Position numbers and translations under genes: made by a program. The notes beneath the pieces are model-generated. The model was not told where the DNA came from and did no database searches. It worked only from the letters and a program-made list of their open reading frames with translations. Of a stretch of DNA of 64,000 bases, positions 48,432 to 63,531 are shown in pieces (the stretch's first letter is position 1; every line of letters starts with the position of its first letter). The DNA is from Labrys monachus (GTDB taxonomy: Bacteria; Pseudomonadota; Alphaproteobacteria; Rhizobiales; Labraceae): contig NZ_JAUSVK010000001.1 in the NCBI RefSeq assembly GCF_030814655.1, forward strand, positions 2,003,501 through 2,067,500, read 5' to 3'.

Positions 48432-49411
48432 GCCGGCTCTCCCATGCTGAGGATGGCTCGCGCCACGACGCGTGGCGCGAGTTCGATCTTGTAGCGGTTG
48501 GCGCCATGGTCGACGGCGCCGTCCATGGCGAGGGCGCTGGCGGCGCGGACGGTTTCCGGGTCCAGCAGCCTGCCCCGCAGCGCATCCTCGACCGCCCGCG
48601 CCCGCCATGGCCGCGTCGCGACGCCGCCCAGGGCGACGCGGATGTCGCGGATGGTCCGGCCGTCGGACGCCAGTTCCAGGCCCACGGCCGCGCTTGCCGC
48701 CGCGAATTCATAGGACTGGCGATCGCGGATCTTGAGATAGGTCGAGCGGTGTGCCGCCGGCGAGGCGGGGAGGCTGACCGCCGTGATCATTTCGCCCGGC
48801 CGGATCGCCTGTTCGCGATGCGGGGTGTCGCCCGGCAGGAGGAAGAAGTCCTCGACGCCGACCGTCCGCTCGCCGAGATGGACGACGGCGTCGAAGGCGA
48901 CGAGCGCGACGGCCAGATCGCCCGGATAGGCCGCGATGCAGGCCAGGCTGGTGCCGAGCACGGCGTGATTGCGGGTGATGCCGCCGATCGCCGAGCAGCC
49001 GCTGCCCGGCGCCCGCTTGTTGCAGGCCGGGAAGGCCGCGGGATCGCGGAAATAGGCGCAGCGCGTGCGCTGCATCAGATTGCCGCCGATGGTCGCCATG
49101 TTGCGGATCTGGGCCGAGGCGGCCTGCCACAGCGCTTCGGAGACGGCGGGAAAATGCCGCCTGATGTCGGCGTCGTCGGCCACAAGGCTCATTTTCGCCA
49201 GGGCGCCGATGCTGGCGCGGCCGCTCTCGACGGTCACCGCGTCCAGGCCCGGGAGGCGGGTGATGTCGACGAGGTGCTCGGGTTCGGTCACGCCGCATTT
49301 GGCGAGGTCGAGCAGGGTGGTTCCCCCGGCGAGCAGCATGGCGCCGGGGAGGGCGGCGCTTCGGCGCGCCTCGTCGGCGGAGCCGGCGCGGTGATAGGAA
49401 AAATCCCTCAT
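48428..49411 (-). CDS. FAD subunit of the aldehyde oxidoreductase (PaoB-like)
   Basis: 327 residues. FAD-binding medium-subunit fold with LLAGGTTLLDLAKCG and ATIGGNLMQRTRC. The segment RCAYFRDPAAFPACNKRAPGSGC, here split as RCAYFRDPAAFPAC and NKRAPGSGC, carries Cys spaced like the ligands of the extra [4Fe-4S] cluster known in E. coli PaoB, with a further Cys in LGTSLACIAAY. CO-dehydrogenase flavoprotein C-terminal domain follows. ATGA overlaps link it to both other subunits, so the three are made as one set. Confidence 0.9.
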   Translation of the reverse strand: MRDFSYHRAGSADEARRSAALPGAMLLAGGTTLLDLAKCGVTEPEHLVDITRLPGLDAVTVESGRASIGALAKMSLVADDADIRRHFPAVSEALWQAASAQIRNMATIGGNLMQRTRCAYFRDPAAFPACNKRAPGSGCSAIGGITRNHAVLGTSLACIAAYPGDLAVALVAFDAVVHLGERTVGVEDFFLLPGDTPHREQAIRPGEMITAVSLPASPAAHRSTYLKIRDRQSYEFAAASAAVGLELASDGRTIRDIRVALGGVATRPWRARAVEDALRGRLLDPETVRAASALAMDGAVDHGANRYKIELAPRVVARAILSMGEPA

Positions 49412-49884
49412 GACGCCATCTCCGCGGCCTGCCGCACGGCGGCGACGATGTGGGGATAGGCGCCGCAGCGGCAGAGATTGCCGGACATGTATTCCCGGAT
49501 CTCGTCGTCGGAGCGGGCATGCCCCTCGCGGATGCAGGCGATGGCGGACATGATCTGCCCGGGGGTGCAATAGCCGCACTGGAAGGCGTCCTGCTCCAGG
49601 AAGGCGGCCTGCACGGGATGGAGCCGGCCCTCCGGCTCGAACAGGCCTTCGATGGTGGTGACGGCCTGGCCCTCGGCCTGGGCCGCGAGCGTCAGGCAGG
49701 CCAGGACGCGCCGGCCGTCGACATGGACCGTGCAGGCGCCGCATTGTCCCTGGTCGCATCCCTTCTTCGTCCCGGTCAGGCCGAGATGGTCGCGCAGGGC
49801 GTCGAGCAGCGTCACGCGGGGCTCGAGCGCCAAGGCATGCTCGCGCCCGTTGATGCTGAGGTGGAGGGTGGTTCGGCTCGTCAT
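49408..49884 (-). CDS. Two [2Fe-2S] cluster subunit of the aldehyde oxidoreductase (PaoA-like)
   Basis: 158 residues. Plant-type ferredoxin domain with Cys43, Cys48, Cys51 and Cys63 (CDQGQCGAC, LAC) and a C-terminal four-helix domain with QCGYCTPGQI and NLCRCGAYPHI. It passes electrons from Moco to FAD. E. coli PaoA has a Tat leader of about 50 residues; this protein begins directly at the ferredoxin domain and is therefore cytoplasmic. First gene of the operon, with the TetR gene and a 26-bp palindrome upstream. Confidence 0.93.
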   Translation of the reverse strand: MTSRTTLHLSINGREHALALEPRVTLLDALRDHLGLTGTKKGCDQGQCGACTVHVDGRRVLACLTLAAQAEGQAVTTIEGLFEPEGRLHPVQAAFLEQDAFQCGYCTPGQIMSAIACIREGHARSDDEIREYMSGNLCRCGAYPHIVAAVRQAAEMAS

Positions 49885-50047
49885 GCGTCAGACTCCGCAA
49901 GCCCTTGCAGGCAGTGATTTGAACGGGTGCAGGCGGCGGCACGGTCGGCGCGCTCGGGCCCTTCACCGCGGGGAACCGCCGGTCTCCTGCGGAATCTTGC
50001 GCGCTCGAAGCACATGGCGTACTCGGCTTGCAGACAAGAATTTTCCA

Positions 50048-50073
50048 CACAAACGGAGGCGCCTCCGTTTGTG
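50048..50073. promoter_or_regulatory. 26-bp perfect palindrome, TetR operator
   Basis: CACAAACGGAGGC (50048-50060) is followed directly by its exact reverse complement GCCTCCGTTTGTG (50061-50073). It lies in the 49885-50128 interval between the divergent aldehyde oxidoreductase operon and the TetR gene. Length, symmetry and the AAACGGAG half-site are what TetR-family dimers bind. Confidence 0.8.
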
Positions 50074-50128
50074 CAGTTTAGAGACTTGCCGTTTTCGGTT
50101 CAAGTCCGAATCCGCATGGGAGTGCCCA

Positions 50129-50773
50129 TTGGCGACCAGGCCACCCGCCGACCCCGCGAACGTCCCCGCCGCCGACGAGACGGCGAGGCCCCTGCGCGCG
50201 GATGCCCGCCGCAACCGCGACAGGCTGATCGAGGCTGCCGCCGCCGCGTTCGCCGAACATGGCGTGGACACGTCCCTGGAAGAGATCGCGCGCCGAAGCG
50301 GTGTCGGCATCGGCACGCTCTACCGCCATTTTCCGACACGCGAGCATCTCGTCGAGGTGGTCTACCGACGGGAGGTGGAGGGGTTGTGCGCGGCGGCGGC
50401 GGAGCTGCTGCGCAGCCATCCGTCAGACGTAGCCCTGGAACTGTGGATGCTGCGCTTCGTGGACTATATCGCCACCAAGCGCGGCCTCGCGAAGAGCCTG
50501 CGCATCCTGCTCACCGCGAATGCCGGTCTGTTCGCGGACACGTCGGGCATGGTCATGCAGGCCGTGCAGCGCCTGGTCGAGGCGGGCGTGGCCGACGGCG
50601 CCATCCGTCCGGATATCGAAAGCACCGACCTGATCCACGCATTGTCCGGCATCTATTCGACGCCGGAGACACCGGAATGGCGCGAACGGTCGCGCCGGCT
50701 CGTCGGGCTGCTGATGGCTGGGCTTCGCTGGGGCGCACAGCAGGCGCCGGCAGGCGCGGGCCGGCCGCGCTGA
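50129..50773 (+). CDS. TetR family transcriptional regulator
   Basis: 214 residues from a TTG start. N-terminal helix-turn-helix near 25-75 (RLIEAAAAAFAEHGVDTSLEEIARRSGVGIGTLYRHFPTREHL); helical ligand domain behind it with LRILLTANAGLFADTSGM. TTG 50129 is chosen because GGGAG (50118-50122) lies 6 bases upstream and the protein then has the normal TetR length; no ATG or GTG fits. Divergent from the aldehyde oxidoreductase operon, which it probably represses through the palindrome at 50048, responding to an aldehyde or aromatic compound. Confidence 0.88.
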   Translation: MATRPPADPANVPAADETARPLRADARRNRDRLIEAAAAAFAEHGVDTSLEEIARRSGVGIGTLYRHFPTREHLVEVVYRREVEGLCAAAAELLRSHPSDVALELWMLRFVDYIATKRGLAKSLRILLTANAGLFADTSGMVMQAVQRLVEAGVADGAIRPDIESTDLIHALSGIYSTPETPEWRERSRRLVGLLMAGLRWGAQQAPAGAGRPR

Positions 50774-50796: not shown

Positions 50797-51645
50797 CTAT
50801 CGCTGCGACGCCCGCTTCACGCTCCGGATGTCGGCGAGGACCGCGCCGTCGCTCTTTCTCTCGATCCGGCAATGGTGCCGCCAGCCGGTCGGGCCGCTGC
50901 ACGCCTCCAGGAGGCGGACGAGGATCGCCTCGCCCGGATCGAGATTGGCGTGATAGGCGACCTCGCGCCGGACGGTGATGGCGTGGCGGGCGAACGCGGG
51001 ATCGAGCTGCCATTCGGCCCGGTCCGCGAAGGCGACGAAGCTGGTGAAATAGAGGAAGCCGGCGCCGTTGAAGTCCTGCGACGGGCAGGGCGTGCATTCG
51101 AGGATGACCGGTGCGCCCGGTGCGGCGACGGGCCGGGGGTGGCCGGTCCCGCCAGGGGGCGCGGCGTCGTCGGCCATGGGCTCGATCGCCGGCAGCCCGT
51201 CAATCTCGACCCGCGCCACGGTATGGTTCGAAGCGCCGTCCCGCCGGTGGACGAACACCGACACCATCGTCACCTCGCCGAGGGGCGCGCCGCCGGCGAA
51301 CAGCAGGTGCCGGCTGCGGATCTGCGTGCGCGAGATGCGCGACAGCGACGTCACGATTTCCAGCACGTCGTTTTCCCCGACGCGATCGAATGCGGCATCG
51401 GCGATCGCCACCGAGCGGAACGCGGCATAGACCGCGTGGCCCTGGCGGTCCCGGAAATCCGGCACCCGGCGGCCGGCCATGCGGGCGAGCAGCAGCCAGT
51501 GCCGATGACCGAGTTCCCGCAGAAGCCAGGTTTCGGACAGGCCGTTCAGCGCCAGATGCGGCATGCCGAGCAGCACCGGCCCGAGCCCGGCCTCCATCGG
51601 CGCGTCGCGGGTTCCGGGCGGGTCGATGCGCAGAGCGACATTCAT
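50797..51645 (-). CDS. LnmK-like protein of the Pnap_2097 type (Nit1C-associated)
   Basis: 282 residues. MNVALRIDPP start, then LGPVLLGMPHLALNGLSETWLLRELGHRHW and DVLEIVTSLSRISRTQIRSRHLLFAG, which match the hot-dog type family related to the bifunctional acyltransferase/decarboxylase LnmK. I recall Pnap_2097 family proteins as optional members of Nit6803-type clusters. It is the last gene of the minus-strand cluster, 14 bases after the flavoprotein. The role is unknown; an acyl- or malonyl-thioester substrate is likely by family. Confidence 0.72.
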   Translation of the reverse strand: MNVALRIDPPGTRDAPMEAGLGPVLLGMPHLALNGLSETWLLRELGHRHWLLLARMAGRRVPDFRDRQGHAVYAAFRSVAIADAAFDRVGENDVLEIVTSLSRISRTQIRSRHLLFAGGAPLGEVTMVSVFVHRRDGASNHTVARVEIDGLPAIEPMADDAAPPGGTGHPRPVAAPGAPVILECTPCPSQDFNGAGFLYFTSFVAFADRAEWQLDPAFARHAITVRREVAYHANLDPGEAILVRLLEACSGPTGWRHHCRIERKSDGAVLADIRSVKRASQR

Positions 51646-51659
51646 GGCCTGCGTCCGCT

Positions 51660-52949
51660 TCAAACGGCGAGGCGCGCGGGTACCGGCGCGGCGCGGTCGC
51701 GGCCGCGCGCGGCGAGGTGGTCGACGACGAAGCCGGCATCGCGGCCGACGCTCAGGAAGCGGCCGGAACCCCAGGTCCACAGCCAGGGCATGCCGACGAC
51801 ATAGACGCCGTCGACGCCGGTGACGCCGCGCCGGTGGCTCGGATAGCCGTTCTCGTCGAGGAGGGGCAGGTCGACCCAGGACCAGTCCGACCGGAAGCCC
51901 GTGCTCCAGACGATGCTGCCGATGCCGCTTGCGGCAAGGTCGAGGCGGCGCGCAGGCTCGCCCGGCTGCCACACCGGCTCGTAATGCGTGCCCTCGGGCG
52001 CGGCGATGGCATTGTCGGCGATATGCCGGTCGATCAGCCCGCAAATGCCGTTATAGACCGCATCGGCGGCATCGAGGTTGCGCGCGAGGTCGTCGGCGAG
52101 CGTCAGGCTTCCGTCGTCGATGCCGGTGAGCCGGCCGTGCAGCACCATGCCTTCGGCCGCGAAGCGGCGCAGATCGATGTCGCGGCCGCCGTCGCGCCCG
52201 GTGAGATAGTGGTTGGCGTTGCGGCGCACCTTCTCGCCGAGCGGATGCTGCTCGACCGTCATGTCGTACTGGCCGAGATCGTCGAGCCAGTCGACGGCGT
52301 CGCGGCCGCGATAGAAGCGCGGGCAGCGCGGCGCGCTGCCGACGACGAGATGGACCTTGCGGCCGGCGAGATGGAGGTCTTCGGCGATCTGGCAGCCGGA
52401 CTGGCCGGAGCCCACCACCAGCACCGCGCCCTCGGGCAGCTGCTGCGGGTTGCGGTAGGCGGAGGAGTGGATCTGTACGATCGCGTCCGGAACCGATTCC
52501 GACATCCGCGGCGTGTTGGGCAGGTGGTAGGCGCTGACGGCGAGGATGACCGCATCGGCGGTCACCGCGCCTTCGCTCGTCTCGACGAGGAAGACGCCGT
52601 TCCGGCGCGACACGCGCTCGACCGCGACGCCCTCGCGGAGGGGGGCGTCGATATGGCGGGCGAAGGCCTCGACATAGGCGACGATCTCGTCGCGCGGCAT
52701 GAAGCCGTGCGGCTCGGGGCCGGCATAGGGGAAGTCCGGCAGCTGGCACTGCCAGTTCGGCGTCACCAGGCAGAAGGCATCCCAGCGCTGGCTGCGCCAG
52801 GCATGGGCGATGCGGTTCCTTTCGAACACGACATGATCGATGCCGTGGCGCTTGAGATGATGGCTGGCCGAGAGGCCGGCCTGGCCGCCGCCGACCACGA
52901 CGGCGGGGTGGTGCGGGAGGGAAGGGGCACGCATGGATGTCTCCGTCAT
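51660..52949 (-). CDS. nitH: Nit1C flavin-dependent oxidoreductase (MSMEG_0569 family)
   Basis: 429 residues. N-terminal FAD motif VVVGGGQAGLSASHHLKRHG, NADPH motif LVVGSGQSGCQIAEDLHLAG near 170 and DAFCLVTPNWQCQLPDFPY: a monooxygenase-like flavoprotein resembling CzcO/FMO enzymes. MSMEG_0569 family members are a fixed part of Nit1 nitrilase clusters; the symbol follows the nit1C naming for the flavoprotein. The ATG at 52949 overlaps the preceding gene stop (ATGA). The reaction is not established. Confidence 0.85.
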   Translation of the reverse strand: MTETSMRAPSLPHHPAVVVGGGQAGLSASHHLKRHGIDHVVFERNRIAHAWRSQRWDAFCLVTPNWQCQLPDFPYAGPEPHGFMPRDEIVAYVEAFARHIDAPLREGVAVERVSRRNGVFLVETSEGAVTADAVILAVSAYHLPNTPRMSESVPDAIVQIHSSAYRNPQQLPEGAVLVVGSGQSGCQIAEDLHLAGRKVHLVVGSAPRCPRFYRGRDAVDWLDDLGQYDMTVEQHPLGEKVRRNANHYLTGRDGGRDIDLRRFAAEGMVLHGRLTGIDDGSLTLADDLARNLDAADAVYNGICGLIDRHIADNAIAAPEGTHYEPVWQPGEPARRLDLAASGIGSIVWSTGFRSDWSWVDLPLLDENGYPSHRRGVTGVDGVYVVGMPWLWTWGSGRFLSVGRDAGFVVDHLAARGRDRAAPVPARLAV

Positions 52950-53233
52950 TCGATGAAGGCGGTGCAGATGACCTGCGCGGCGGGCTGGTCGGCGAAATGC
53001 GCGGCGCGGGTCTCGATGTCGCCGAGCTGGCGCAGAGCGCGCGAGCAGGGCACGCCGTATTTCGCCCGCACGCGCTCGCTGGCGATGCCGAGCGCGGTGC
53101 GGCTGCGGTCGAGGAAATCGGTGAGCGGATAGGCCGTGCTGGGCGCGAAATAATCCCTGATGACGAGCGAGGGCGAATAGCAGGTCACCTCCTCGCCGTC
53201 GGGCCAGCGGATGACGAAGCGTATTTCAGGCAT
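52946..53233 (-). CDS. Nit1C small conserved protein (MSMEG_0570 family)
   Basis: 95 residues. MPEIRFVIRWPDGEEVTCYSPSLVIRDYF and the mid-region YPLTDFLDRSRTALGIASERV are characteristic of the MSMEG_0570 nitrogen-starvation family. It has no recognised catalytic motif. The start lies inside the end of the glycosyltransferase gene (8-base overlap) and the end overlaps the flavoprotein start, so it is tightly coupled. It may be a scaffold or a small substrate-carrier-like partner (inference). Confidence 0.82.
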   Translation of the reverse strand: MPEIRFVIRWPDGEEVTCYSPSLVIRDYFAPSTAYPLTDFLDRSRTALGIASERVRAKYGVPCSRALRQLGDIETRAAHFADQPAAQVICTAFIE

Positions 53234-54389
53234 GCTGGCGGGCTCCCAGGGCAAGATAGACGGGCAGATGCGCGCGGGCGGTGTCGGCCCAGTTGTGGCG
53301 GGCCGCGACGGCGAGGCCCCGCGCGGCAAGGCGTTCGCGCTGCGGCGAGCGCGTCGCCGCGACCATGGCGTCGGCGATCGACCCCGGCGATGCCGGATCG
53401 CACCAGAGCGCGTCGCCGTCGGCAAGGTAGTCGGTGAACGGCTCGATATGAGAGGTCACCACCGGGATGCCGCAGGCCATCGCCTCGATCACGGCGAGGC
53501 CGAAGCCTTCCTTGACCGAAGGGAAGACGAGGGCAGCGGCGATGCGGTAGAGCGCCGCCATCTCGGCCTGTGGAACCGGCCCGGTGATGCGCAGGGCGGC
53601 CTCGGGCAAAGCGAGCCGGTCCAGCGCGGCCTCGAATTCGGCGCGATAGGCGGAATGGTCGAGCACCGAGGCGCCGCCGGCGACGACGAGCTGCGCCGAG
53701 GGCATCAGCACATGCACCTGGGCGAAGGCTTCGAGGATCCGGACGCTGTTCTTGCGTTCCTCGATGCCGCCGATGCTGAGGAAGACCGGACCCTTGCCGA
53801 TGCCGAGCCGGCGGGCGAGGGCGCTTTCGCCGCCGTCGGCGCGCGGCGTGAAGAAGCCGGTGTCCACGCCGTTGCCGACGATGGTGGCGTCGAGGCCCAT
53901 ATCCCGGGCGAGCCGGTCGCGCCACAGCCGGCTGACGACGAAATGCCGGTCGGCCAGGCGGATCGAGCGCGCCTGGAGGGCGGCGATGCGCGCGTCCTCG
54001 AACCGATCCACGTGATGCACCGTGCGGGCGAACGCCTCGATGCGGCCCGCCTGCCGCAGGGTAGCCAGCGCATTGCCCGAAATGCCGTCATGCGCATGGT
54101 AGACATCGAAGCGGCGGTTGGTGGCGTCCTGGAAATGGCGGACATAGTCGGCGATGCGGGTCTCGACCATCGCCAGCGTGCCGTCCCCGGCCGGCGCGGC
54201 GCGAACGCAGACCGTCTCGCAGGCCGCCTTGCGGAAGAAGCCGCCGCCCTTCGCGTCGGGGGCGTGCACCACCGCCTCGTGCCCGAGCGCCGTCAGCGCC
54301 TCGCCCAGCGCCAGGGCATGCACGACGCCGCCGCGCGGATTGGTCGAATGGGAGAGGATGGCGATCCGCAGCCGCTCGTTCGTTCTCAT
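53226..54389 (-). CDS. Nit1C glycosyltransferase (MSMEG_0565 family, GT4)
   Basis: 387 residues. GT-B fold: N-terminal IAILSHSTNPRGGVVHALALGEAL, YHAHDGISGNAL, and the C-terminal donor site SIGGIEERKNSVRILEAFA, PSVKEGFGLAVIEAMACGIPVV (E-x7-E motif). Transfers a sugar from a nucleotide donor to an unknown acceptor. Its presence in a nitrilase cluster argues that the cluster makes a glycosylated product. ATGA overlap with the AIR synthase-like gene upstream. Confidence 0.85.
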   Translation of the reverse strand: MRTNERLRIAILSHSTNPRGGVVHALALGEALTALGHEAVVHAPDAKGGGFFRKAACETVCVRAAPAGDGTLAMVETRIADYVRHFQDATNRRFDVYHAHDGISGNALATLRQAGRIEAFARTVHHVDRFEDARIAALQARSIRLADRHFVVSRLWRDRLARDMGLDATIVGNGVDTGFFTPRADGGESALARRLGIGKGPVFLSIGGIEERKNSVRILEAFAQVHVLMPSAQLVVAGGASVLDHSAYRAEFEAALDRLALPEAALRITGPVPQAEMAALYRIAAALVFPSVKEGFGLAVIEAMACGIPVVTSHIEPFTDYLADGDALWCDPASPGSIADAMVAATRSPQRERLAARGLAVAARHNWADTARAHLPVYLALGARQHA

Positions 54390-55360
54390 GCCGCAACCTC
54401 CCGTCCGGTCATGGCGAGGAGGGGAAGGGCGGCATGGTCGCGGATCACCTCGCGGCGATCGCCGTCGGTGATGGCGACTTGCGACGAGGCGTCGATCGTG
54501 CCGATGGCGGCGGCGGCGATGCCGCGCCCGGTGAAGCGCGCGACGACCGCCTCCACGTCGCCGGCCTTGACGGCGAGGAGGTAGCCGTAGCTCGGAAAGG
54601 TCGCCAGCCAGCGTTCGAGCGGCACGGCCGGCGGCCTCGGGATCAGGGTGACGTCGATGTCGATGCCGACGCCGGAACATTCGGCGAGCATGACCGCCGT
54701 GCCGACGATGCCGCCCTGGCTGATATCCTTGGCGGCCCGGGCGAGACCGGCTTCCGCGAGCGCCGGCAGGATCTCGATGTCGCCGCGCAGCCGGTCGGGC
54801 GGCGCATCCGTCGCGGCCTCCCAGTTGGAGAAGGGTTCGCGATAGCGGCCGCGCAGATCGATCGCGGCGACGAGACGGTCACCCGGCCGTGCGTCGAAGC
54901 TCGTCAGCAGGCGGGTGGCGCGGCCTAGGATGGCGACGGAGAGCTGGCTGCGGTCGGTGCGGACATTGGTATGGCCGCCGACGATCGGCACGCCGAAGGC
55001 CTGCGCCGCGGCGCGGAGGCCGGCGAGGACCGGTCCGGCCCCCTCTTCGCCGTTCGCCCACACCGCGTCGACGATGGCCAGCGGCCGTCCGCCCATGGCG
55101 GCGACGTCGGAGATGTTGACCATCACGCCGCACCAGCCGGCGAACCACGGATCGCCGGCGACGAACTCGTTCATGAAGCCCTCGATGGCGAAGAGCAGGT
55201 GGCCGTCGCCGTCGGGGATCGCGGCGCAATCGTCGCCGACCGGCACCGCGCCGTGCCCGGATAGGCCGAGCCGCTCGGCGACGATGCCGATGTCCTGCTT
55301 GGCGGCGATGCCGCGGTTGGCGCGCAGCGTGCCGGCGAGGGCGGCGAGATCGATGGCCAT
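54386..55360 (-). CDS. nitF: Nit1C AIR synthase-like ATPase (Sll0787 family)
   Basis: 324 residues. The PurM/ThiL/SelD fold: Gly/Asp-rich VGDDCAAIPDGDGHLLFAIEG, then NISDVAAMGGRPLAIVDAVW, GGHTNVRTD and AKDISQGGIVGTAVMLAE. Family members activate a carbonyl oxygen with ATP for amine attack or phosphorylate a small molecule. It is not the purine-pathway PurM, which differs in flanking motifs and context. ATG 55360 follows GAGGGGA. Nit1C nomenclature uses nitF for this member. Confidence 0.83.
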   Translation of the reverse strand: MAIDLAALAGTLRANRGIAAKQDIGIVAERLGLSGHGAVPVGDDCAAIPDGDGHLLFAIEGFMNEFVAGDPWFAGWCGVMVNISDVAAMGGRPLAIVDAVWANGEEGAGPVLAGLRAAAQAFGVPIVGGHTNVRTDRSQLSVAILGRATRLLTSFDARPGDRLVAAIDLRGRYREPFSNWEAATDAPPDRLRGDIEILPALAEAGLARAAKDISQGGIVGTAVMLAECSGVGIDIDVTLIPRPPAVPLERWLATFPSYGYLLAVKAGDVEAVVARFTGRGIAAAAIGTIDASSQVAITDGDRREVIRDHAALPLLAMTGREVAA

Positions 55361-55370
55361 GCCGTTCCCC

Positions 55371-55913
55371 TCACGCGGCTTTCCGAGCGAGGGCGACGAA
55401 GCCCTGCTCGGCATTGGCGATGGGACGGTAATGGTCGAGGTCGGCCGCCATCAGATGATGCCTGCGGCCGTGCAGCTCGATCTCCTCGACGCTGCGCCAG
55501 TGCAGGCGGCGGAAGAGCAGGACGTTCTGTTCCTGCACATGGGCGAGGAAACGCCGGCAGCCACGGGCGTGGGCCGAGCAGACCGCGAGGCGGATCAGCG
55601 ACGTCCCGAGCGCGCCGACCTTGCGGTAGTCGGCGGCGACCGCGAGGCGCGAGCCCCACCACAGACCATCTTCCGCCTCGTGGATGCGCACAGTGCCGAC
55701 CACCCGGTCGGCAGCGACGCCGAGCATCGACAGCGCGACGATCGGGATAGCGTGCCCGTCGATCGCGTCGATGTCGCTGCGGTCGAAGAGGCCCTGCTCG
55801 CTGCAGAAAACATCGCGGCGCAGCGCGAGGGCACCGGCCCGTTCCCATGGATCGGTCGCGAACTTGACCTGGAATTCGCTGGCGGTGAAGGGCTTGAACG
55901 GTTCGAAGATCAT
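55371..55913 (-). CDS. nitE: Nit1C GNAT N-acetyltransferase (MSMEG_0567/Sll0786 family)
   Basis: 180 residues. GNAT fold: LRRDVFCSEQGLFDRSDIDAID at the front, VVGTVRIHEAEDGLWWGSRLAVAADYRKVGALGTSLIRLAV with the acetyl-CoA pyrophosphate loop, and FLAHVQEQNVLLFRRLHW. Resembles autoinducer-synthase-like GNATs in the VFCSEQ segment. It probably acylates an amine in the pathway. The start overlaps the radical SAM stop (55910-55913). Confidence 0.84.
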   Translation of the reverse strand: MIFEPFKPFTASEFQVKFATDPWERAGALALRRDVFCSEQGLFDRSDIDAIDGHAIPIVALSMLGVAADRVVGTVRIHEAEDGLWWGSRLAVAADYRKVGALGTSLIRLAVCSAHARGCRRFLAHVQEQNVLLFRRLHWRSVEEIELHGRRHHLMAADLDHYRPIANAEQGFVALARKAA

Positions 55914-57028
55914 TTCGCCAGCGTCCTTTCATAGGTCGCGAGGGCGGAGCAGGCGCCGCATCTGCCGCAGCCGGCCTTGATGTCCACCGCCTTCAGCCCG
56001 CTCGCCACCAGCATCGAGGAGAGCGGCGCGAGGATCGCATGCATGAAGGCGGGCGTCGGCCCGGGGTGGCTTTCGAGCGGCGTGCCGGAGATCGGCACGA
56101 AGGGCACGACGAAGGGATAGACGCCGAGCGCGACCAGCCTGGCGCAGATGTCGAGGATCGCCTCCGGCGTGTCGCCGAGCCCGGCGAGGATATAGGTCGA
56201 GACCTGGCCGCGGCCGAACACCGGCACGGCGGCGGCGAAGGAGGCCATGTATTTCTCGATCGGGACCTGCGCCTTGCCGGGCATGATGCGCTGGCGGACC
56301 TCGGGCGTGACCGCCTCCAGATGCATGCCGAGCGCATCGACGCCCGCCTCGCGCAGGCGCCCGAACCAGGCGTCGTCTTCCGGCGGCTCGCATTGGGCCT
56401 GGATCGGCAGGTCCACCGCGGCCTTGATCGCACGCGCGCTGTCGGCGAGGACGGCGGCGCCCCGGTCCTCGCCCTTCGGCGTGCCCGTCGTCATCACCAT
56501 ATGCCTGACGCCGTCGAGCTCGACCGCCGCCTTCGCGACTTCCGCCAGCTGCGCCGGTGTCTTGTGGGCGACGGTGCGGCCGGCGGCGAGCGACTGGCCG
56601 ATCGAGCAGAACTGGCAGGTCCTGGTACGGCTCTGGTAGCGGATGCAGGTCTGCAGCACCGTCGTCGCCAGCACGTCCCGCCCGTGCAGCACGGCGATGT
56701 GGGAATAGGGGATGCCGTCGGCGGTGGTGAGGTCGTAGAAGCGGGGCCGCAGCGGAAAGGTGACCTCGCCGACCGGACGTCCCTCGCGGCTGATGCGGCT
56801 CTTGCCGAAGGCGTCGGGCTTCTCGACGAGATAGGGGCTGTCGAAGGCCGGGGCAGTGTGGACGGGCACCATCACCGTCATGCCGTCGACGGTCATGGCC
56901 TTGTGGTCGGACGGTCCCGCCCCGCCGCGGCGGCTTTCGAGCCCGGCCTTGGGATCAACCAGCCGCGCTCCGAACGACTGCAATTCGTTGATCAGCTGCG
57001 CGGTCGGCAGGATCGCTGCGTTCTCCAT
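55910..57028 (-). CDS. nitD: Nit1C radical SAM protein (MSMEG_0568 family)
   Basis: 372 residues. Cys128, Cys138 and Cys141 ([15 protein letters not shown]) form a CX9CX2C variant of the radical SAM [4Fe-4S] motif, spaced differently from the canonical CX3CX2C. A C-terminal CGRCGAC (354, 357, 360) suggests an auxiliary cluster. [12 protein letters not shown] and LQVHLEA-like [11 protein letters not shown] belong to the TIM barrel. Reaction unknown. The first 74 bases of the gene overlap the end of the nitrilase gene in another frame, so the start is not certain. Confidence 0.86.
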
Positions 57029-57998
57029 CGGGAAGGCTCCTGAGGTCGGGTTGTGCGGCGGGTTCGCGGGCGAATTCCATCGGGCCGGCGGCGCGGCCGT
57101 CGAGCACGAGGTGGAGGAGTTCCGGGCGGGCGTAATGGCCGACCGAATCCATCATCCGCTTGCGCTTGAGGATGAGGCTCATGTCGAGATCGGCGACCAG
57201 GATGCCCTCGCCCTCGGTGAGCGGGGGGACGAGATGGCGGCCCTCGGGCGAGACGATCGCCGTCATGCAGCCGCCGCGCAGGCCGCGCTGCAGGCCCTCG
57301 TCCGGCGTGATCGAGGCAATCTGGCTCTCGGTGAGCCAGCCCGTGGCGTTGACGACGAAGCAGCCGCTCTCGAGCGCGTGGTGGCGGATGGTCACCTCGA
57401 TCTGCTCGGCGAAGATCGGGCCGACCAGCGATCCCGGAAATTGCGCGACGTGGATTTCCTCGTGCTGGGCCATGAGGGCGTAGCGCGCCAGCGGATTGTA
57501 GTGCTCCCAGCAGGCGAGGGCGCCGAGCCGGCCGACGGCGGTGTCGACGACCCGCAGCCCGGATCCGTCGCCCTGGCCCCAGATCATGCGCTCATGGAAG
57601 GTCGGCGTGATCTTGCGGCGCCTGAGCTTGAGGGAACCGTCGGCGTCGAAGACGAGCTGGGTGTTGTAGAGCGTGCCGTGGTCGCGCTCGTTGACGCCGA
57701 GCACGACCACGACGCCGTGGCGGCGCGCGGCGCCGGCGACGGCGTCGGTCGCGGGGCTGGGGACCGTGACGGCATGCTCATAGAGCCGCAGATGCTCCCT
57801 GCCGGTCAGCACCGGCGGCAGCACGAAGGAGAAATAGGGATACCAGGGCACGAAGGTCTCGGGGAAGACCACGAGATCGGCGCCCTTGCCGGCGGCCTCC
57901 GCGATGGCCGCCAGCACCTTGTCCACCGTGCCCTCGCGCGAGGCCAGGTCCGGCGCGATCTGCACCGCCGCCGCCCTGATCGATGTCTTTGCGGTCAT
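56955..57998 (-). CDS. nitC: Nit6803/NitC family nitrilase
   Basis: 347 residues. Full nitrilase triad: Glu47 ([12 protein letters not shown]), Lys129 ([17 protein letters not shown]) and Cys163 ([10 protein letters not shown]), with the CWEH motif diagnostic of true nitrilases. Hydrolyses R-CN to the acid and ammonia. The ATG at 57998 is well supported: upstream residues are unrelated. The Nit6803 lineage is always found with the genes that follow here, and in Pseudomonas the cluster is linked with growth on cyanide. The product here is likely an intermediate of a longer pathway. Confidence 0.93.
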
Positions 57999-58057
57999 TT
58001 GGGGGTCTCCGTTCGATCCTCCGATGCCGGCGGGACAAGGCCCGCCGGCCTGCGGGA

Positions 58058-58540
58058 TCACAGGGTCCAGGTGTCCAGGATGAAGGCGTTGTCCCGGCGG
58101 TGCAGCAGGATGAGGTCGAGCACGTCGAGCGGGCTGATCGGCTGGATGCCGGGAATGAGCGAGGGCTCGCCATGGCCGTAGAGCGCCTGCAGGGCGAAGC
58201 GGCAGGCATAGACCTTGCCGCCCTCGGCGATGAACTTCTCGATCTGGTTGTTGAAGTTGAGATGGCCCGGAAAGGCCTCGTCGCCGATCTTCGGAAAGCC
58301 GCGCTGCACGCCGAGCGTCACGCCCGGCCCATAGAGCAGGATCGAGGTCTCGAAGCCCTTGCGCTTGAGGCGGGTCGCCTGCAGCAGGTTGACGAAACCG
58401 ATCGATCCTTCGAAGGCGACGGTGTGGAAGGTGACGAGCGCCTTCTCGCCGGGCTCGGCTTTGACGTCCTCGAACAGCTTCTGCTCGTAGTCGACGAAAT
58501 AATCGCCCTTCTGGTGCGCGGGCTGGGTAACGGCGGGCAT
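58058..58540 (-). CDS. nitB: Nit1C nitrogen-starvation protein (MSMEG_0572/Sll0783 family)
   Basis: 160 residues. [52 protein letters not shown] and [35 protein letters not shown] are characteristic of the Sll0783 family, whose fold recalls DsrE-like proteins. Sll0783 is induced by nitrogen starvation in Synechocystis and affects polyhydroxybutyrate. The start is set by AGGAG about 8 bases upstream. First gene of the cluster; a consensus sigma-54 promoter lies about 54-70 bases upstream. Confidence 0.87.
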
Positions 58541-58593
58541 GCTGAAGCTCCTGTATGGGCAGGACACGCTCTGGGCGGTCGCATCTCCATCAA

Positions 58594-58610
58594 AGCAATC
58601 AACGTGCCAA
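58594..58610 (-). promoter_or_regulatory. Sigma-54 (RpoN) promoter of the Nit1C cluster
   Basis: Read on the minus strand, 58610 to 58594 is TTGGCACGTTGATTGCT, a full match to the sigma-54 consensus TGGCACG-N4-TTGCW (-24 GG and -12 GC with the correct 10-base interval). Transcription would start about 58584, some 44 bases before the nitB ATG. Sigma-54 promoters need an enhancer-binding activator such as NtrC, which fits nitrogen control; no activator gene lies in the window. A weak NtrC-like pair, TGCAGACAAGGTGCG, lies at 58750-58764. Confidence 0.8.
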
Positions 58611-58620
58611 CATTAAAACG

Positions 58621-58822
58621 GTCAATATTGCTTATATATCTCATAAAATCCAGTCAATCGAGTCGGCAATTTTCGGTGATTTGGTCGAAAATGCTCCGCA
58701 TCGTGCAGAGATGGGCAAGCATTCTGCCGTTAAATCAGTCAGCGCGGCTTGCAGACAAGGTGCGGTCAATTTTATCGCGATGGACCGGTGACAAAGGGTT
58801 CCTGCGACAATATACAGTCAAT
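58621..58822. promoter_or_regulatory. Four GTCAAT repeats between nitB and the MocR gene
   Basis: GTCAAT occurs in the same orientation at 58621-58626, 58653-58658, 58765-58770 and 58817-58822 within the 305-base, locally AT-rich divergent region. MocR-type regulators typically bind direct repeats, so these are candidate sites for the adjacent regulator. The spacings (32, 112, 52) are irregular, so the assignment is tentative. Confidence 0.4.
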
Positions 58823-58845
58823 CCACGGTATGGACGGAGGGTGGC

Positions 58846-60228
58846 ATGAAGGGCTGGCGGCCGGATCTGAGCGCGAATGAGGGGCCGCTCTACCTCTCGA
58901 TCGCCGATGCGATCGCGCGCGACATCGCACGCGGCGTGCTGACGCCCGGCGATCGCCTGCCGCCCCAGCGCACGCTCGCCGCCGCGCTGGAGGTGGACTT
59001 CACCACGGTGGCGCGCGGCTATGTCGAAGCCGGCAAGCGCGGGCTGATCGAATCCACCGTCGGGCGCGGGAGCTTCATCCGCAGCAACGCGTCCCTGCGC
59101 GAGGACGGCGATCCCCGGCGCCAGCAACTCGCCGACTTCTCGATGAACATGCCGCCCGAGCCCGACGATCCCGAACTGATCGCGCGCATGCAGGACGGCT
59201 TCGCCAGCGTGGCGCGCGACCTGCTGCCGCTGCTGCGCTATCAGGGCTTCGGCGGCGCCGCGGTCGACAAGGACGCCGCCTCGGCCTGGCTCGGCCGGCG
59301 CGCGCTCGTCCCGGCGCAGGAGCGCATCTTCGTGACGCCGGGCGCCCACACGGCTCTGGTCGGCATCTTCTCGCTGCTGGCGAAGGCCGGCGACACCCTG
59401 TTGTCCGAGGCGATCACCTATCCCGGCGTGCGCTCGATCACCGCGCAGCTCGGCCTCAACCTCGTCGGGCTCGAAACCGACAATGACGGCATCCTGCCGG
59501 AGGCGCTGGAAGAGGCGGTCAAGCGCCACAAGCCCAAGGCGCTCTATCTCAACCCGACCCTGCAGAATCCGACGACGGTCACCATCCCGGAGCGGCGACG
59601 TACCGCGATCTGCGCCGTCGCCCGCCGGCACCGCCTGCCGATCGTCGAGGACGACGCCTACGGCTTCATTCCGAGCTACGGGCCGCCGCCGCTGGCCGCG
59701 ATCGCGCCCGACATCTGCTGGCACATCGCCGGCCTCGCCAAATGCATCGGGGCCGGCCTGCGCCTCGCCTTCGTGGTCGCGCCGGACGCGCGTTCGGGAT
59801 GGTCCTTCAGCGCCGCGATGCGGGCGATCTCGGTGATGGCCTCGCCGGTGACGGTGGCGGTGGCGACGCGCTGGATCGAGGACGGCACGGCGGACACCAT
59901 CCTGCGCTTCATCCGCGCCGAGGCGGCGGCGCGGGAAAAGCTCGCCTCGCAATTCTTCGAGCCGGGAACCTATCTGTCCGACCCGCTCAGCTTCAACATC
60001 TGGCTGCCGCTCACCAATGGCTGGACGCGCTCGGCCTTCGTCGGCCATGTCCGGCGCACCGGCATCGGCGTGGTCGCCAGCGACGTCTTCACCGTCGGCG
60101 GCAATCCCGGCGAGGCGGTGCGCGTCGGGCTGGGCGGCCCGATCACGCGCGAACGGCTGCGGACCGGCCTGGAATTCATGGCGCATGCGCTGGAAGGTTC
60201 GCCGGAGACTGCCGCGGCATTCTTCTGA
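58846..60228 (+). CDS. MocR-type regulator (GntR domain fused to an aminotransferase-like domain)
   Basis: 460 residues. Winged helix 14-80 (GDRLPPQRTLAAALEVDFTTVARGY, GRGSFIR) followed by a fold-type I aminotransferase-like domain from about 120 with VTPGAHTALVGIFSLL, YLNPTLQNPTTVTIPE, VEDDAYGFIP and the PLP Lys299 in HIAGLAKCIGAGLRL. It senses PLP or an amino compound and is divergent from the Nit1C cluster, so it probably regulates it. Pseudomonas nit1C clusters are associated instead with a sigma-54 activator (NitA). Confidence 0.9.
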   Translation: MKGWRPDLSANEGPLYLSIADAIARDIARGVLTPGDRLPPQRTLAAALEVDFTTVARGYVEAGKRGLIESTVGRGSFIRSNASLREDGDPRRQQLADFSMNMPPEPDDPELIARMQDGFASVARDLLPLLRYQGFGGAAVDKDAASAWLGRRALVPAQERIFVTPGAHTALVGIFSLLAKAGDTLLSEAITYPGVRSITAQLGLNLVGLETDNDGILPEALEEAVKRHKPKALYLNPTLQNPTTVTIPERRRTAICAVARRHRLPIVEDDAYGFIPSYGPPPLAAIAPDICWHIAGLAKCIGAGLRLAFVVAPDARSGWSFSAAMRAISVMASPVTVAVATRWIEDGTADTILRFIRAEAAAREKLASQFFEPGTYLSDPLSFNIWLPLTNGWTRSAFVGHVRRTGIGVVASDVFTVGGNPGEAVRVGLGGPITRERLRTGLEFMAHALEGSPETAAAFF

Positions 60229-60273: not shown

Positions 60274-61896
60274 TCAGCTGTGAAGGCCGGGAGCCTCCTG
60301 GCCGGTGCGGGCGACATATTCGGTGTAGCCGCCGCCATATTGATGGATGCCGTCCGGTGCCAGTTCCAGCACGCGGTTGGACAGCGCAGCGAGAAAGCGC
60401 CGGTCATGCGAGACGAACAGCATGGCGCCTTCATATTGCGCCAGGGCGGCGATGAGCATCTCCTTCGTCGCCATGTCCAGATGGTTGGTCGGCTCGTCCA
60501 GCACCAGGAAGTTCGGCGGGTCGTAGAGCATCTTGGCCATCACCAGCCGTGCCTTCTCGCCGCCCGAAAGCACGCGGCAGCGCTTCTCGACGTCGTCGCC
60601 GGAAAAGCCGAAGCAGCCGGCGAGGGCGCGCAGCGATCCCTGCCCGGCCTGGGGGAAGGAATCCTCCAGCGACTGGAAAACGGTGTGCTCGCCATCGAGC
60701 AGATCCATGGCGTGCTGCGCGAAATAGCCCATCTTCACGCTGCCGCCCTGGGCGACGGTGCCGTCGTCCGGCGCCGTGGAGCCGGCGACCAGCTTCAGCA
60801 GGGTCGACTTGCCGGCGCCGTTGACGCCCATCACGCACCAGCGCTCCCGGCGGCGCACCTGGAAGTTCAGGCCCTCATAGATGCTCTTCGCGCCGTAGCG
60901 CTTGTGCACGTTCTTCAGGCTCACCACGTCATCGCCCGAGCGCGGCGGCGGCTGGAATTCGAAGGCGACGGTCTGGCGGCGCCGGGGTGGCTCGATCTTC
61001 TCGATCTTGTCGAGCTTCTTGACGCGGCTCTGCACCTGCGCGGCATGGGACGCGCGTGCCTTGAAACGCTCGATGAACTTGATTTCCTTGGCGAGCATGG
61101 CCTGCTGGCGCTCGAATTGCGCCTGCTGCTGCTTTTCGTTCAGCGACCGCTGCTGCTCGTAGAACTCGTAGTCGCCCGAATAGGTGGTGAGCGTGCCGCC
61201 GTCGATCTCCACCACCTTGCCGACGATCCGGTTCATGAATTCGCGGTCATGCGAGGTCATCAGCAAGGCGCCCTCGTAATTCTTGAGGAAGGCCTCCAGC
61301 CAGATGAGGCTTTCGAGGTCGAGATGGTTGCTCGGCTCGTCCAGGAGCATGGCATCCGGGCGCATCAGAAGGATGCGCGCCAGCGCGACGCGCATCTTCC
61401 ATCCGCCGGACAGGGCGCCGACGTCGCCGTCCATCATCGCCTCGGTGAAGCTCAGGCCGGCCAGGACTTCGCGCGCACGGCCTTCCAGCGCGTAACCGTC
61501 GAGTTCCTCGAAGCGCGCCTGCACCTCGCCGTAGCGCCCGACGATCTCATCCATGTCGTCGGCGCGGGCCGGGTCGGCCATGGCGGCCTCGAGTTCCTTC
61601 AGCTCGGCGGCCACCACGCTCACCGGGCCGGCGCCGTCCATCACCTCGGAGACGGCGCTGCGGCCTGCCATCTCGCCGACATCCTGGCTGAAATAGCCGA
61701 TGGTGACGCCCCGGTCGACCGAGACCCGGCCCTCATCCGCCTGCTCCTGCCCGGTGATCATCCGGAAGAGGGTGGTCTTGCCTGCGCCGTTCGGGCCGAC
61801 CAGGCCGACCTTTTCCCCCTTCAGCAGCGCCGCCGACGCTTCGATGAAGAGAATCTGGTTGCCGTTCTGCCTGCTGATGTTTTCGAGACGAATCAT
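60274..61896 (-). CDS. ABC-F family ATPase (ribosome-associated, YbiT/Uup type)
   Basis: 540 residues with two ATPase domains and no membrane part. Domain 1: Walker A GPNGAGKTT, signature LSGGWKMRVALARIL, Walker B AMLLDEPSNHLD. The inter-domain arm (about 235-310) is rich in Gln/Lys (NEKQQQAQFERQQAMLAKEIKF). Domain 2: GVNGAGKST, LSGGEKARLVMAKML, NFLVLDEPTNHLD. ABC-F proteins act on the ribosome E site to control translation or relieve stalling. The C-terminal tail is short, unlike Uup. Housekeeping type, with no drug-resistance context. Confidence 0.93.
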   Translation of the reverse strand: MIRLENISRQNGNQILFIEASAALLKGEKVGLVGPNGAGKTTLFRMITGQEQADEGRVSVDRGVTIGYFSQDVGEMAGRSAVSEVMDGAGPVSVVAAELKELEAAMADPARADDMDEIVGRYGEVQARFEELDGYALEGRAREVLAGLSFTEAMMDGDVGALSGGWKMRVALARILLMRPDAMLLDEPSNHLDLESLIWLEAFLKNYEGALLMTSHDREFMNRIVGKVVEIDGGTLTTYSGDYEFYEQQRSLNEKQQQAQFERQQAMLAKEIKFIERFKARASHAAQVQSRVKKLDKIEKIEPPRRRQTVAFEFQPPPRSGDDVVSLKNVHKRYGAKSIYEGLNFQVRRRERWCVMGVNGAGKSTLLKLVAGSTAPDDGTVAQGGSVKMGYFAQHAMDLLDGEHTVFQSLEDSFPQAGQGSLRALAGCFGFSGDDVEKRCRVLSGGEKARLVMAKMLYDPPNFLVLDEPTNHLDMATKEMLIAALAQYEGAMLFVSHDRRFLAALSNRVLELAPDGIHQYGGGYTEYVARTGQEAPGLHS

Positions 61897-62039: not shown

Positions 62040-63371
62040 TCACGGCACCCGCCTGACGCCGAAGACGAGACGCATGGCCGTCTCCTTTCCGGGCACGACA
62101 TGCTTTTGAAGCTCTCCGCGATGGAGGGCCATGATGCGCCGCACGATTTCCAGGCCGATGCCGAGCCGATCGGTGCTGTTGGAAAATTCGATGCCGCCGC
62201 CGTCGCGAAGCAGCCCGGCATCGTCCACGACCGAGACCTCCAGGCCCGGACCGGCCACCACCTCGATGCCGGTGCCCGCCGGCGTGTGCTTCACCGCGTT
62301 CTCGACGAGATTGCGGATGGCATCGTAGAGAAGCGGGGCATGGCCCTGGACGGTGCCCGCCCCCCTGTCGTCGAAGGCGATCCTGTCCTTGCGGTCATAG
62401 ACATAGGGGGCGATGTCGATAACCACGCGCCGGGCGATCTCGGCGATGTCGATCGGCTGCAATGTGGTGCGGTCCACGCTTTCGAGGCGCCCGAGCGCGG
62501 TGATCTGGGCGATGAAGCGCGTCAGCGCGTTGATATCCCCCTCGATCTTGCGGGCCCTCGGGTGGTCGATATAGCTGAGCTCGAGCTGCATCATGGCGAG
62601 CGGCGTTCTGATTTCATGCGCGACCGCGGTGGTGAACACGCGCTGCGACGACATCAGCGAGCGGACGCGCGACAGCGTCCGGTTGATGGCGGCGCCGAAA
62701 TCCGCGATTTCGCGAGGCATGCCGGCGACGTCGATCGTCTGCTTGGGATCGAGCGGATCGATGCTCTCCGCCAGATGCGCGGCCTGCCTTACGGGACGCA
62801 GCGCGAAATGAATCGACAGCAGCGTCCCGCCCAGCAGAAGCAGCAGCATGATCGACATGGGGATGGCGAGATGGTCCTCGAACTCCTGCTCGAGGACACC
62901 CCACAGGACGTGGTCATGGTCGTCCAGCACGGCGATTTCGATGAAGATCCTCTGGCCCTCGACGGTGAAGGTCTTGCCGCCGGCGACCTTGATCGGCTTT
63001 CCCGATCCGATGAGCCTTGACCACACGTCCGGCGGATTGACTTCGAGGGGCAAAAGGTGGCGTTCGCAATTGACGTCGCAATCGCTGTAGATCACCTCGC
63101 CCGTCGGCGTTCTGATGCGGGTCACATAGGACGGGTCGGTCGAATCGTAGCGCGCGAGATCGTCCGGCAGCCGGTAGCGCCAGCCGGACTGCTCGCGCCG
63201 GATTCCCTCGACCAGTAGGCCGGTCTCGCGCTGGACCATGAGGTCGGCGAGCTTGGTGTCGTCGAAATAGTAATCCGCGAAGATCACGAAGGCCTGCAGC
63301 GTCGCCGCCAGTGCGGCAAAGATCACGATGCGCCAGGCAACGATGCGGGCGAGTGTCTTTCGGCTGGTCAT
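62040..63371 (-). CDS. Membrane sensor histidine kinase without an adjacent response regulator
   Basis: 443 residues. TM1 about 13-35, a periplasmic sensor domain about 36-165 containing two Cys (SDCDVNCERH), TM2 about 168-190, HAMP-like linker, HisKA with phosphoacceptor His252 (AVAHEIRTPLAMMQLEL), N box Asn358 (LVENAVKHT) and a G2 box DRLGIGLEIVRRIM. The G1 box is reduced to VVDDAGLLRDGGG. The start at 63371 (GGGGGAT ribosome site) excludes an unlikely upstream extension. The ABC-F gene lies downstream and no response regulator is present within the window. Confidence 0.88.
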   Translation of the reverse strand: MTSRKTLARIVAWRIVIFAALAATLQAFVIFADYYFDDTKLADLMVQRETGLLVEGIRREQSGWRYRLPDDLARYDSTDPSYVTRIRTPTGEVIYSDCDVNCERHLLPLEVNPPDVWSRLIGSGKPIKVAGGKTFTVEGQRIFIEIAVLDDHDHVLWGVLEQEFEDHLAIPMSIMLLLLLGGTLLSIHFALRPVRQAAHLAESIDPLDPKQTIDVAGMPREIADFGAAINRTLSRVRSLMSSQRVFTTAVAHEIRTPLAMMQLELSYIDHPRARKIEGDINALTRFIAQITALGRLESVDRTTLQPIDIAEIARRVVIDIAPYVYDRKDRIAFDDRGAGTVQGHAPLLYDAIRNLVENAVKHTPAGTGIEVVAGPGLEVSVVDDAGLLRDGGGIEFSNSTDRLGIGLEIVRRIMALHRGELQKHVVPGKETAMRLVFGVRRVP

Positions 63372-63531
63372 CGATCCCCCGATACCCGGTGCGCATCGTT
63401 CCCGAGAGCAAAATGCGTTCAAGCAGGTGCGGATCACCAATTGAACGCAGTGGTGCCAAAAGAATTTTGCGGTTCATGGTGGTTCGATCTGAAGGCAGGG
63501 CGTCCCACGAGGCCTCAGCCTATCCGATCGA

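Follow-up and report, generated by a model that had tools for sequence, protein, structure and literature searches.

A Nit1C-type nitrilase operon of Labrys monachus with a conserved sigma-54 promoter element and direct repeats beside a divergent MocR-type gene

Introduction

Why would a nitrilase be encoded together with a radical S-adenosylmethionine (SAM) enzyme, an acyltransferase and a glycosyltransferase, and what would switch such a set of genes on? These questions are raised by a locus in Labrys monachus (contig NZ_JAUSVK010000001.1, positions 2,003,501 to 2,067,500), a stretch of 64,000 nucleotides that was analysed as a whole and is called the window below. All ten genes predicted in an initial annotation were confirmed at their positions, nine of them on the minus strand at 50797-58540 and, divergent from these, a gene for a MocR-type regulator at 58846-60228 on the plus strand. 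We think it probable that the nine genes form a nitrogen-starvation operon that builds a small metabolite via a nitrile, acylation and glycosylation being optional additions, and that it starts at a sigma-54 promoter and is gated by MocR. The seven-gene core of such clusters, known as Nit1C, has been in print since 2005, and insertion of a glycosyltransferase gene was reported in the same year for Burkholderia and Rubrivivax (PMC1199592), so the glycosyltransferase does not set the Labrys copy apart. What is new here is the control region, made up of a sigma-54 promoter and direct repeats.

The nit operon and its relatives

Window proteins were scored against NCBIfam models with curated cut-offs, and domains were assigned by Pfam. 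Each of the nine minus-strand proteins exceeds the curated cut-off of its own NCBIfam family, by which chance open reading frames (ORFs) are rejected and the gene content and order first read from this locus are borne out. In the direction of transcription, the first gene encodes the MSMEG_0572/Sll0783 family protein NitB (58058-58540; TIGR04044, 284.8 bits against a cut-off of 109.85), followed by the Nit6803-type nitrilase NitC (56955-57998; TIGR04048, 573.3 against 502.6), the MSMEG_0568 family radical SAM enzyme NitD (55910-57028; TIGR04043, 609 against 303.7) and the MSMEG_0567-type GNAT acyltransferase NitE (55371-55913; TIGR04045, 237.8 against 68.45; Acetyltransf_1). Next come the sll0787 family AIR-synthase-like ATPase NitF (54386-55360; TIGR04049, 462.3 against 321.3; AIRS and AIRS_C) and the MSMEG_0565 family glycosyltransferase of the GT4 type (53226-54389; TIGR04047, 489.9 against 259.85; Glycos_transf_1 and Glyco_transf_4). 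The 95-residue MSMEG_0570 family protein NitG (52946-53233; TIGR04042, 122.8 against 79.85), the MSMEG_0569 family flavin-dependent oxidoreductase NitH (51660-52949; TIGR04046, 647 against 498.35; Pyr_redox_3) and an LnmK-like protein of the Pnap_2097 family (50797-51645; TIGR04099, 281.3 against 125) complete the series. Several starts are likely shorter than in the listed ORFs (LnmK-like ATG 51645, MSMEG_0570 53233, glycosyltransferase 54389, AIR-like 55360, nitrilase 57998, MSMEG_0572 58540), the revised starts being our choice among the codons listed. On this basis the spacing is consistent with a single operon: of eight junctions, seven are overlaps or gaps of no more than 14 bases, and the remaining gap is 59 bases long.

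To collect relatives, genome contigs were searched with a profile of five aligned nitrilases. At least 582 stretches matched, of which the best 80 were kept, a selection that leans to close relatives. The ten proteins were mapped in these 80 loci by tblastn and checked with profiles built from the matches, and nine loci truncated at the end of a contig were excluded, which left 71 complete ones.

The locus belongs to the Nit1C type, as had been proposed, by families, order and strand: seven conserved ORFs lie on one strand with the flavoprotein last (order as in PMC1199592), and all seven genes of the cluster of Podar (2005) and of Pseudomonas nitBCDEFGH are shared in like order and strand (PMC1199592, PMC11049912). 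To these the window adds the glycosyltransferase and LnmK-like genes. The divergent gene is of the MocR type where Pseudomonas has NitA, a sigma-54-dependent activator (PMC11049912), which places the locus outside the Pseudomonas type with its divergent NitA; the distinction first drawn between the two therefore stands, but the arrangement is nothing special, MocR being divergent and adjacent in 73 of the 80 loci. Most of the families, the glycosyltransferase included, are named after genes of the Mycobacterium smegmatis gpr operon, MSMEG_0565-0572, which differs in being under GlnR control, with a SoxR box and an added putative amidase, and for which the accessible part of the report names no MocR or LnmK-like gene (PMC6039565). 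One number, MSMEG_0567, is shared by the GNAT and AIR-like families, which suggests a fusion of the two in mycobacteria.

Control region

The region between the MocR and MSMEG_0572 genes contains TGGCACGTTGATTGC at 58595-58609 on the minus strand, which has the sigma-54 consensus form TGGCAC-N5-TTGC and reads into the nit genes. Its conservation was examined in 78 intergenic regions, namely those of 73 loci, the window and four further genomes (77 distinct, L003 and L105 being identical). The exact form was found in 42 of the 78 on this strand and in none on the opposite strand, compared with a mean of 0.14 and a maximum of 2 in 50 dinucleotide shuffles. A looser form, TGGCA[CT]-N5-NTGC, adopted after a variant had been noticed at the same place in betaproteobacterial loci (16 loci inspected), occurs in 61 of 78 regions (60 of 77 distinct) against one on the opposite strand and a mean of 0.63 (maximum 4) in 100 such shuffles, and 59 of these 61 elements sit 40-100 bases before MSMEG_0572 as mapped. 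The L. monachus genome encodes sigma-54 and has 23 exact elements, the nit site among them, compared with 2 for the reversed pattern. The element accompanies 47 of 49 loci with the glycosyltransferase and 5 of 20 without it, an association that follows lineage. A scan for sigma-70 promoters gave 0 (shuffles 0.4) and one for terminators 1 (shuffles 3.1).

A motif near AATTGAATGCATATT recurs in every intergenic region, with 292 of 354 sites on one strand and a spacing that is most commonly 12 bases (55 pairs) or 11 (34). As 73 regions served to train the repeat model, its recovery in 73 of 73 is circular; each of five regions outside the training set has at least three sites over 9 bits, one of these (L003) being equal to a training region. 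A simpler pattern, ATTGA[ACT]TG[CGT]A, gave 146 sites in 67 of the 78 regions against a mean of 2.0 and a maximum of 5 in 30 shuffles. In the L. monachus genome, a stricter pattern, itself fitted to these sites, has four matches, three of them here, compared with one for a reversed control. In loci with the promoter element, 122 of 218 repeats on the nit strand start 20-80 bases upstream of it. Candidate MocR operator sites in the window lie on the minus strand at 58613-58626, adjoining the -24 element, at 58645-58658, at 58757-58770, less than 90 bases from the mocR start, and at 58809-58822, less than 40 bases from it; one further repeat overlaps the -12 element and was left out of the feature list. 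The repeats look like a MocR operator through which MocR may gate both nit and itself.

The regulator itself combines GntR and aminotransferase (Aminotran_1_2) domains. In this it resembles EhuR, its nearest family, whose cut-off of 480 bits it does not reach (426.5 bits); the window's protein faces nit across a sigma-54 element. Amines or amino acids are the ligands of MocR proteins such as GabR and EnuR. A lysine motif typical of pyridoxal phosphate-binding aminotransferase folds was matched by a simple pattern in 66 of 74 MocR proteins. Among the seven loci in which MocR is not divergent and adjacent, it lies 4 kb away in L038 and downstream in L110; the match counted as MocR in L106 has 23% identity only and is not an orthologue; and four, of the Rhizobium leguminosarum type (L034, L040, L047, L050), have no MocR in the locus. 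Dispensability of MocR in these four was considered and rejected: each genome encodes an unlinked orthologue of 67-70% identity (next long matches 31-33%), and the repeats upstream of nit are kept. Around the unlinked mocR of L151, no biosynthetic link was recognised among 14 neighbouring ORFs, three scanned with Pfam (LacI-type, AraC-type and DUF983) and the others judged by eye.

Control of a sigma-54 promoter by a MocR protein would be unusual, and among the open-access papers listed in our searches none describes, by title or start of abstract, either this control or the extended form of the cluster; the word 'nitrilase' is absent from a paper on the Burkholderia NtrC regulon (PMC5491218). 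The conserved control region predicts nitrogen limitation as the condition under which to look, and the link to nitrogen limitation made in the initial annotation gains support from the conserved sigma-54 element.

Distribution of the extended form

The accessory genes vary separately across the 71 complete loci and the core genes stay together. All nine genes are found in 38 loci (34 with MocR in the locus), the LnmK-like gene alone is missing from 14, the glycosyltransferase alone from 12 and both from six, and one (L079) lacks four genes in place. The initial annotation named as refuting its view the case that nitC elsewhere is never accompanied by the LnmK-like and glycosyltransferase genes; these 38 loci show that it is. 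By the same loci a unique Labrys assembly is rejected, and the idea that the LnmK-like gene makes it special is not supported. The LnmK-like protein occurs in 51 of the 80 loci, the weakest scoring 246 bits against its profile. In a more even sample of 398 genomes across the phylum, the nitrilase exceeded its cut-off in 16, the window's own included; the other 15 clusters, inspected within 17-18 kb, have MocR in 14, the glycosyltransferase in nine and all nine genes in three. The extended nine-gene form is common in Alpha- and Betaproteobacteria.

In Hansschlegelia plantiphila (L079, L156), the cluster is split in two, with an MSMEG_0569 copy in each part. The second locus holds the GNAT, AIR-like, glycosyltransferase, MSMEG_0570 and second MSMEG_0569 genes together, and the LnmK-like gene is at the first. 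Loss of function in L079 was therefore rejected, the four missing genes being found elsewhere in the genome, and the retention of all nine families in the split cluster indicates that the genes belong together.

Further families of at least 120 residues common to at least eight of the 80 loci were sought, a search that would miss smaller or rarer partners, and three groups emerged. The first, ABC ATPases, is represented in 25 loci, with identities mostly of 24-43% and no constant distance from the cluster, and this search placed no transporter at a fixed position beside the cluster. Short-chain dehydrogenase-like proteins, named by eye, occur in 13 loci. In nine (L031, L032, L033, L038, L039, L044, L048, L065, L087), a small DUF983-like gene is found immediately next to the nit cluster or on the far side of MocR, its name resting on the Pfam match of a similar gene adjoining the unlinked MocR of L151.

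Core proteins and proposed function

The nitrilase has Glu47, Lys129 and Cys163, as was first noted, and these are invariant in the five aligned sequences, the window's included. The radical SAM enzyme has a variant three-cysteine motif, CX9CX2C, in 80 of 80 loci, which together with a PF04055 match places it in the superfamily, and a C-terminal CX2CX2C in 78 of 80; in the two others (L041, L068) the contig ends inside the gene. In the AIR-like protein, G42-D43-D44 and G128-G129-H130 are invariant in 18 sequences. The predicted model of MSMEG_0570 is confident (mean predicted local distance difference test, pLDDT, 97), and a Foldseek search with it retrieved no solved structure at E <= 0.001 (the best had 0.43), which may point to a new fold.

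The LnmK-like protein also exceeds the LnmK model TIGR04098 (240 bits, cut-off 100), by which it falls in the LnmK sequence family, and its profile finds the solved LnmK structure 4HZN (E 5e-17, in two stretches); a single-sequence search of the Protein Data Bank (PDB) gave no match at 0.01. N140, N193 and N234 are invariant in 24 sequences and aligned with asparagines of LnmK, and the window's protein shares 25-49% identity with its relatives. By our own count, the nearly invariant Y73 is the counterpart of LnmK Tyr62. Decarboxylation by LnmK is said to use a loop asparagine (PMC8666670). Unlike LnmK, the window's protein is accompanied by no recognised carrier protein or polyketide synthase among the ten proteins as scored by NCBIfam and Pfam. 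The family name Pnap_2097 was found in no paper in a search of the open-access literature.

From the gene families, residues, synteny and conservation of promoter and repeats, we infer how promoter use, NtrC, MocR binding and its ligand, reaction order and product might fit together. Sigma-54 RNA polymerase would start the operon at 58595-58609, presumably driven by NtrC under nitrogen shortage, and MocR, responding to an amine or amino acid, would bind the direct repeats that adjoin the -24 element and those close to the mocR start and so gate both the operon and itself. The GNAT protein would put an acyl group on an amine to give an amide, which the AIR-like protein would activate with ATP for cyclisation or for formation of an amidine or nitrile. 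The order from GNAT to AIR-like protein is proposed by analogy with purine synthesis, in which acyl transfer precedes cyclisation, and with AIR synthetase and HypE, both of which use ATP to activate an amide oxygen. The radical SAM enzyme, the DsrE-like MSMEG_0572 protein and the flavoprotein may modify the skeleton, the nitrilase would hydrolyse a nitrile intermediate with release of ammonia, and the LnmK-like protein, in acyl supply or transfer, and the glycosyltransferase would add optional decorations, for which acyl and sugar mass differences are predicted. The most likely role of the seven core proteins is the assembly of one small metabolite and not nitrile degradation alone; as the initial annotation proposed, the gene content appears to fit biosynthesis better than plain nitrile breakdown.

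Several points weigh against this reading. In Pseudomonas, NitC acts catabolically, cyanide assimilation depending on it (PMC11049912, PMC8567248). The 80 loci are close relatives, whose counts are not independent events, and the LnmK-like gene is in three of the 15 even-sample clusters. Sites had already been seen when the looser sigma-54 form and the patterns for the operator were picked, and 17 of the 78 intergenic regions are without the sigma-54 element, 11 of them from genomes of the Rhodobacteraceae or Rhodobacterales (the other six being L036, L072, L077, L082, L090 and L108). Nor is there a clear excess of NtrC-type sites in the 53 loci that were initially scored as sigma-54 positive: with a 7-base spacer there were 23 against 13.1 in shuffles (maximum 24) at two mismatches and 4 against 1.2 (maximum 3) at one, and the excess with a 5-base spacer (36 against 12.8) arises because that pattern often falls on the promoter element itself. 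Among the other 25 loci, eight of which were later scored as sigma-54 positive by the looser form, TGCAC-N7-GTGCA with one mismatch was found in seven, against 0.4 in shuffles (maximum 2).

Phenotypes reported for Nit1C clusters do not sum to one function. Apart from cyanide assimilation, the gpr operon of M. smegmatis, strongly induced without nitrogen (more than 500-fold by one statement of the paper, about 100-fold by another), is associated with a raised NADPH ratio and peroxide resistance (PMC6039565), and Sll0783 of Synechocystis is required for polyhydroxybutyrate storage (by a reference title in PMC9716671; PMC3901256).

Alternative explanations

The operon might instead be catabolic, assimilating cyanide or nitriles as nitrogen, with the nitrilase acting on cyanohydrins as the main step and the other proteins forming the substrate or giving protection. 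The requirement for NitC in cyanide assimilation was found in Pseudomonas CECT5344, in which 3-cyanoalanine induces the nit1C proteins (PMC11049912, PMC8567248), and a MocR-type gene is a putative repressor of another nitrilase, nit4, in this organism, partly on unpublished data (PMC8567248). Sigma-54 control would also fit nitrogen scavenging. However, nitrile hydrolysis should need no acyltransferase, glycosyltransferase, LnmK-like or radical SAM protein, no transporter holds a fixed place beside the cluster, the ABC ATPases in 25 of 80 loci being mostly of low similarity, and the M. smegmatis phenotypes concern NADPH and peroxide (PMC6039565). We regard a catabolic operon as rather unlikely.

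A narrower form of the biosynthetic explanation, with which its probability overlaps, is that the operon makes a redox metabolite that contains sulfur and is glycosylated or acylated, for which a DsrE-like protein would deliver sulfur and the radical SAM enzyme, by analogy with lipoyl and biotin synthases, would insert it from an auxiliary Fe-S cluster. The DsrE assignment of the Sll0783-type protein, and tentatively a YchN-like one, is already published (PMC6039565, PMC1199592). In our comparison by hhalign, MSMEG_0572 matched a DsrE profile built from 12 proteins at 92.6% over 77 columns, with 0.1% for one unrelated control, and its C113 is invariant in 18 sequences. It has no Pfam domain and so falls outside DsrE as Pfam defines it, and a single-sequence PDB search gave nothing meaningful; the profile comparison supports a distant relation to DsrE. 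DsrE folds are not invariably sulfur carriers, a point against this explanation.

The predicted model of the radical SAM enzyme (mean pLDDT 87) is nearest to lipoyl and biotin synthases by Foldseek, in keeping with sulfur insertion, as is the additional C-terminal CX2CX2C. However, NifB, ThiH, RlmN and HydG follow and match as well, the TM-scores reach no more than a moderate 0.47 by query length and 0.66 by target length (the latter for NifB), and the SAM-cluster loop at 129-149 has a pLDDT under 50. By score the protein is neither a lipoyl nor a biotin synthase, being far under both cut-offs (TIGR00510, 22.8 against 310.25; TIGR00433, 19.5 against 225); a single-sequence PDB search gave no match at 0.01, and a profile search only marginal matches to RlmN. 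The glycosyltransferase is weakly similar to MshA (75.2 bits) and the flavoprotein to YpdA (54.4 bits), in each case far under cut-off. These similarities and the peroxide resistance and NADPH shift of M. smegmatis (PMC6039565) could be taken in favour of such a metabolite, but the flavoprotein matches ArsO more strongly (120.9 bits, likewise under cut-off). Taken together, a sulfur-containing product seems to us improbable, and its most specific version, a novel sulfur-containing, acylated and glycosylated redox cofactor or protectant made via a nitrile under nitrogen shortage and gated by MocR at a sigma-54 promoter, still more so.

That the LnmK-like and glycosyltransferase genes are passengers unconnected to the seven-gene core, as their absence from 20 and 19 of the 71 complete loci might suggest, is very doubtful, because their position is kept in many genera, the split Hansschlegelia cluster retains the glycosyltransferase with its second half and the LnmK-like gene with its first, and TIGR04099, rare in the class (over cut-off in three of 385 genomes, the window's own included), adjoins nit-cluster genes in two of the three, the window's own and L111, where its neighbours are the MSMEG_0570 and glycosyltransferase genes. 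In the third genome (L150:9157-10074), no nit gene occurs in 19 kb, and the LnmK-like gene adjoins one for a protein without a Pfam match that is GNAT-like by eye.

Neighbouring genes

Just past the nit operon, a TetR-like gene (ORF 49652-50773, named by eye) ends convergently, and molybdenum hydroxylase genes of the xanthine/aldehyde oxidoreductase-like kind adjoin the operon at 46122-49884 on the minus strand; the Mo and 2Fe-2S subunits match PaoC and PaoA best, under cut-off, and the middle subunit was named by eye. On the other side, a gene for a sensor histidine kinase occupies 62040-63440 on the minus strand, with none of the 25 families listed for it exceeding the cut-off. Between it and mocR, an ABC-F type ATPase is encoded at 60274-61896 on the minus strand (471.5 bits against the cut-off of 380 of a ribosomal-protection-like ABC-F model), the end of its gene lying 45 bases from that of mocR.

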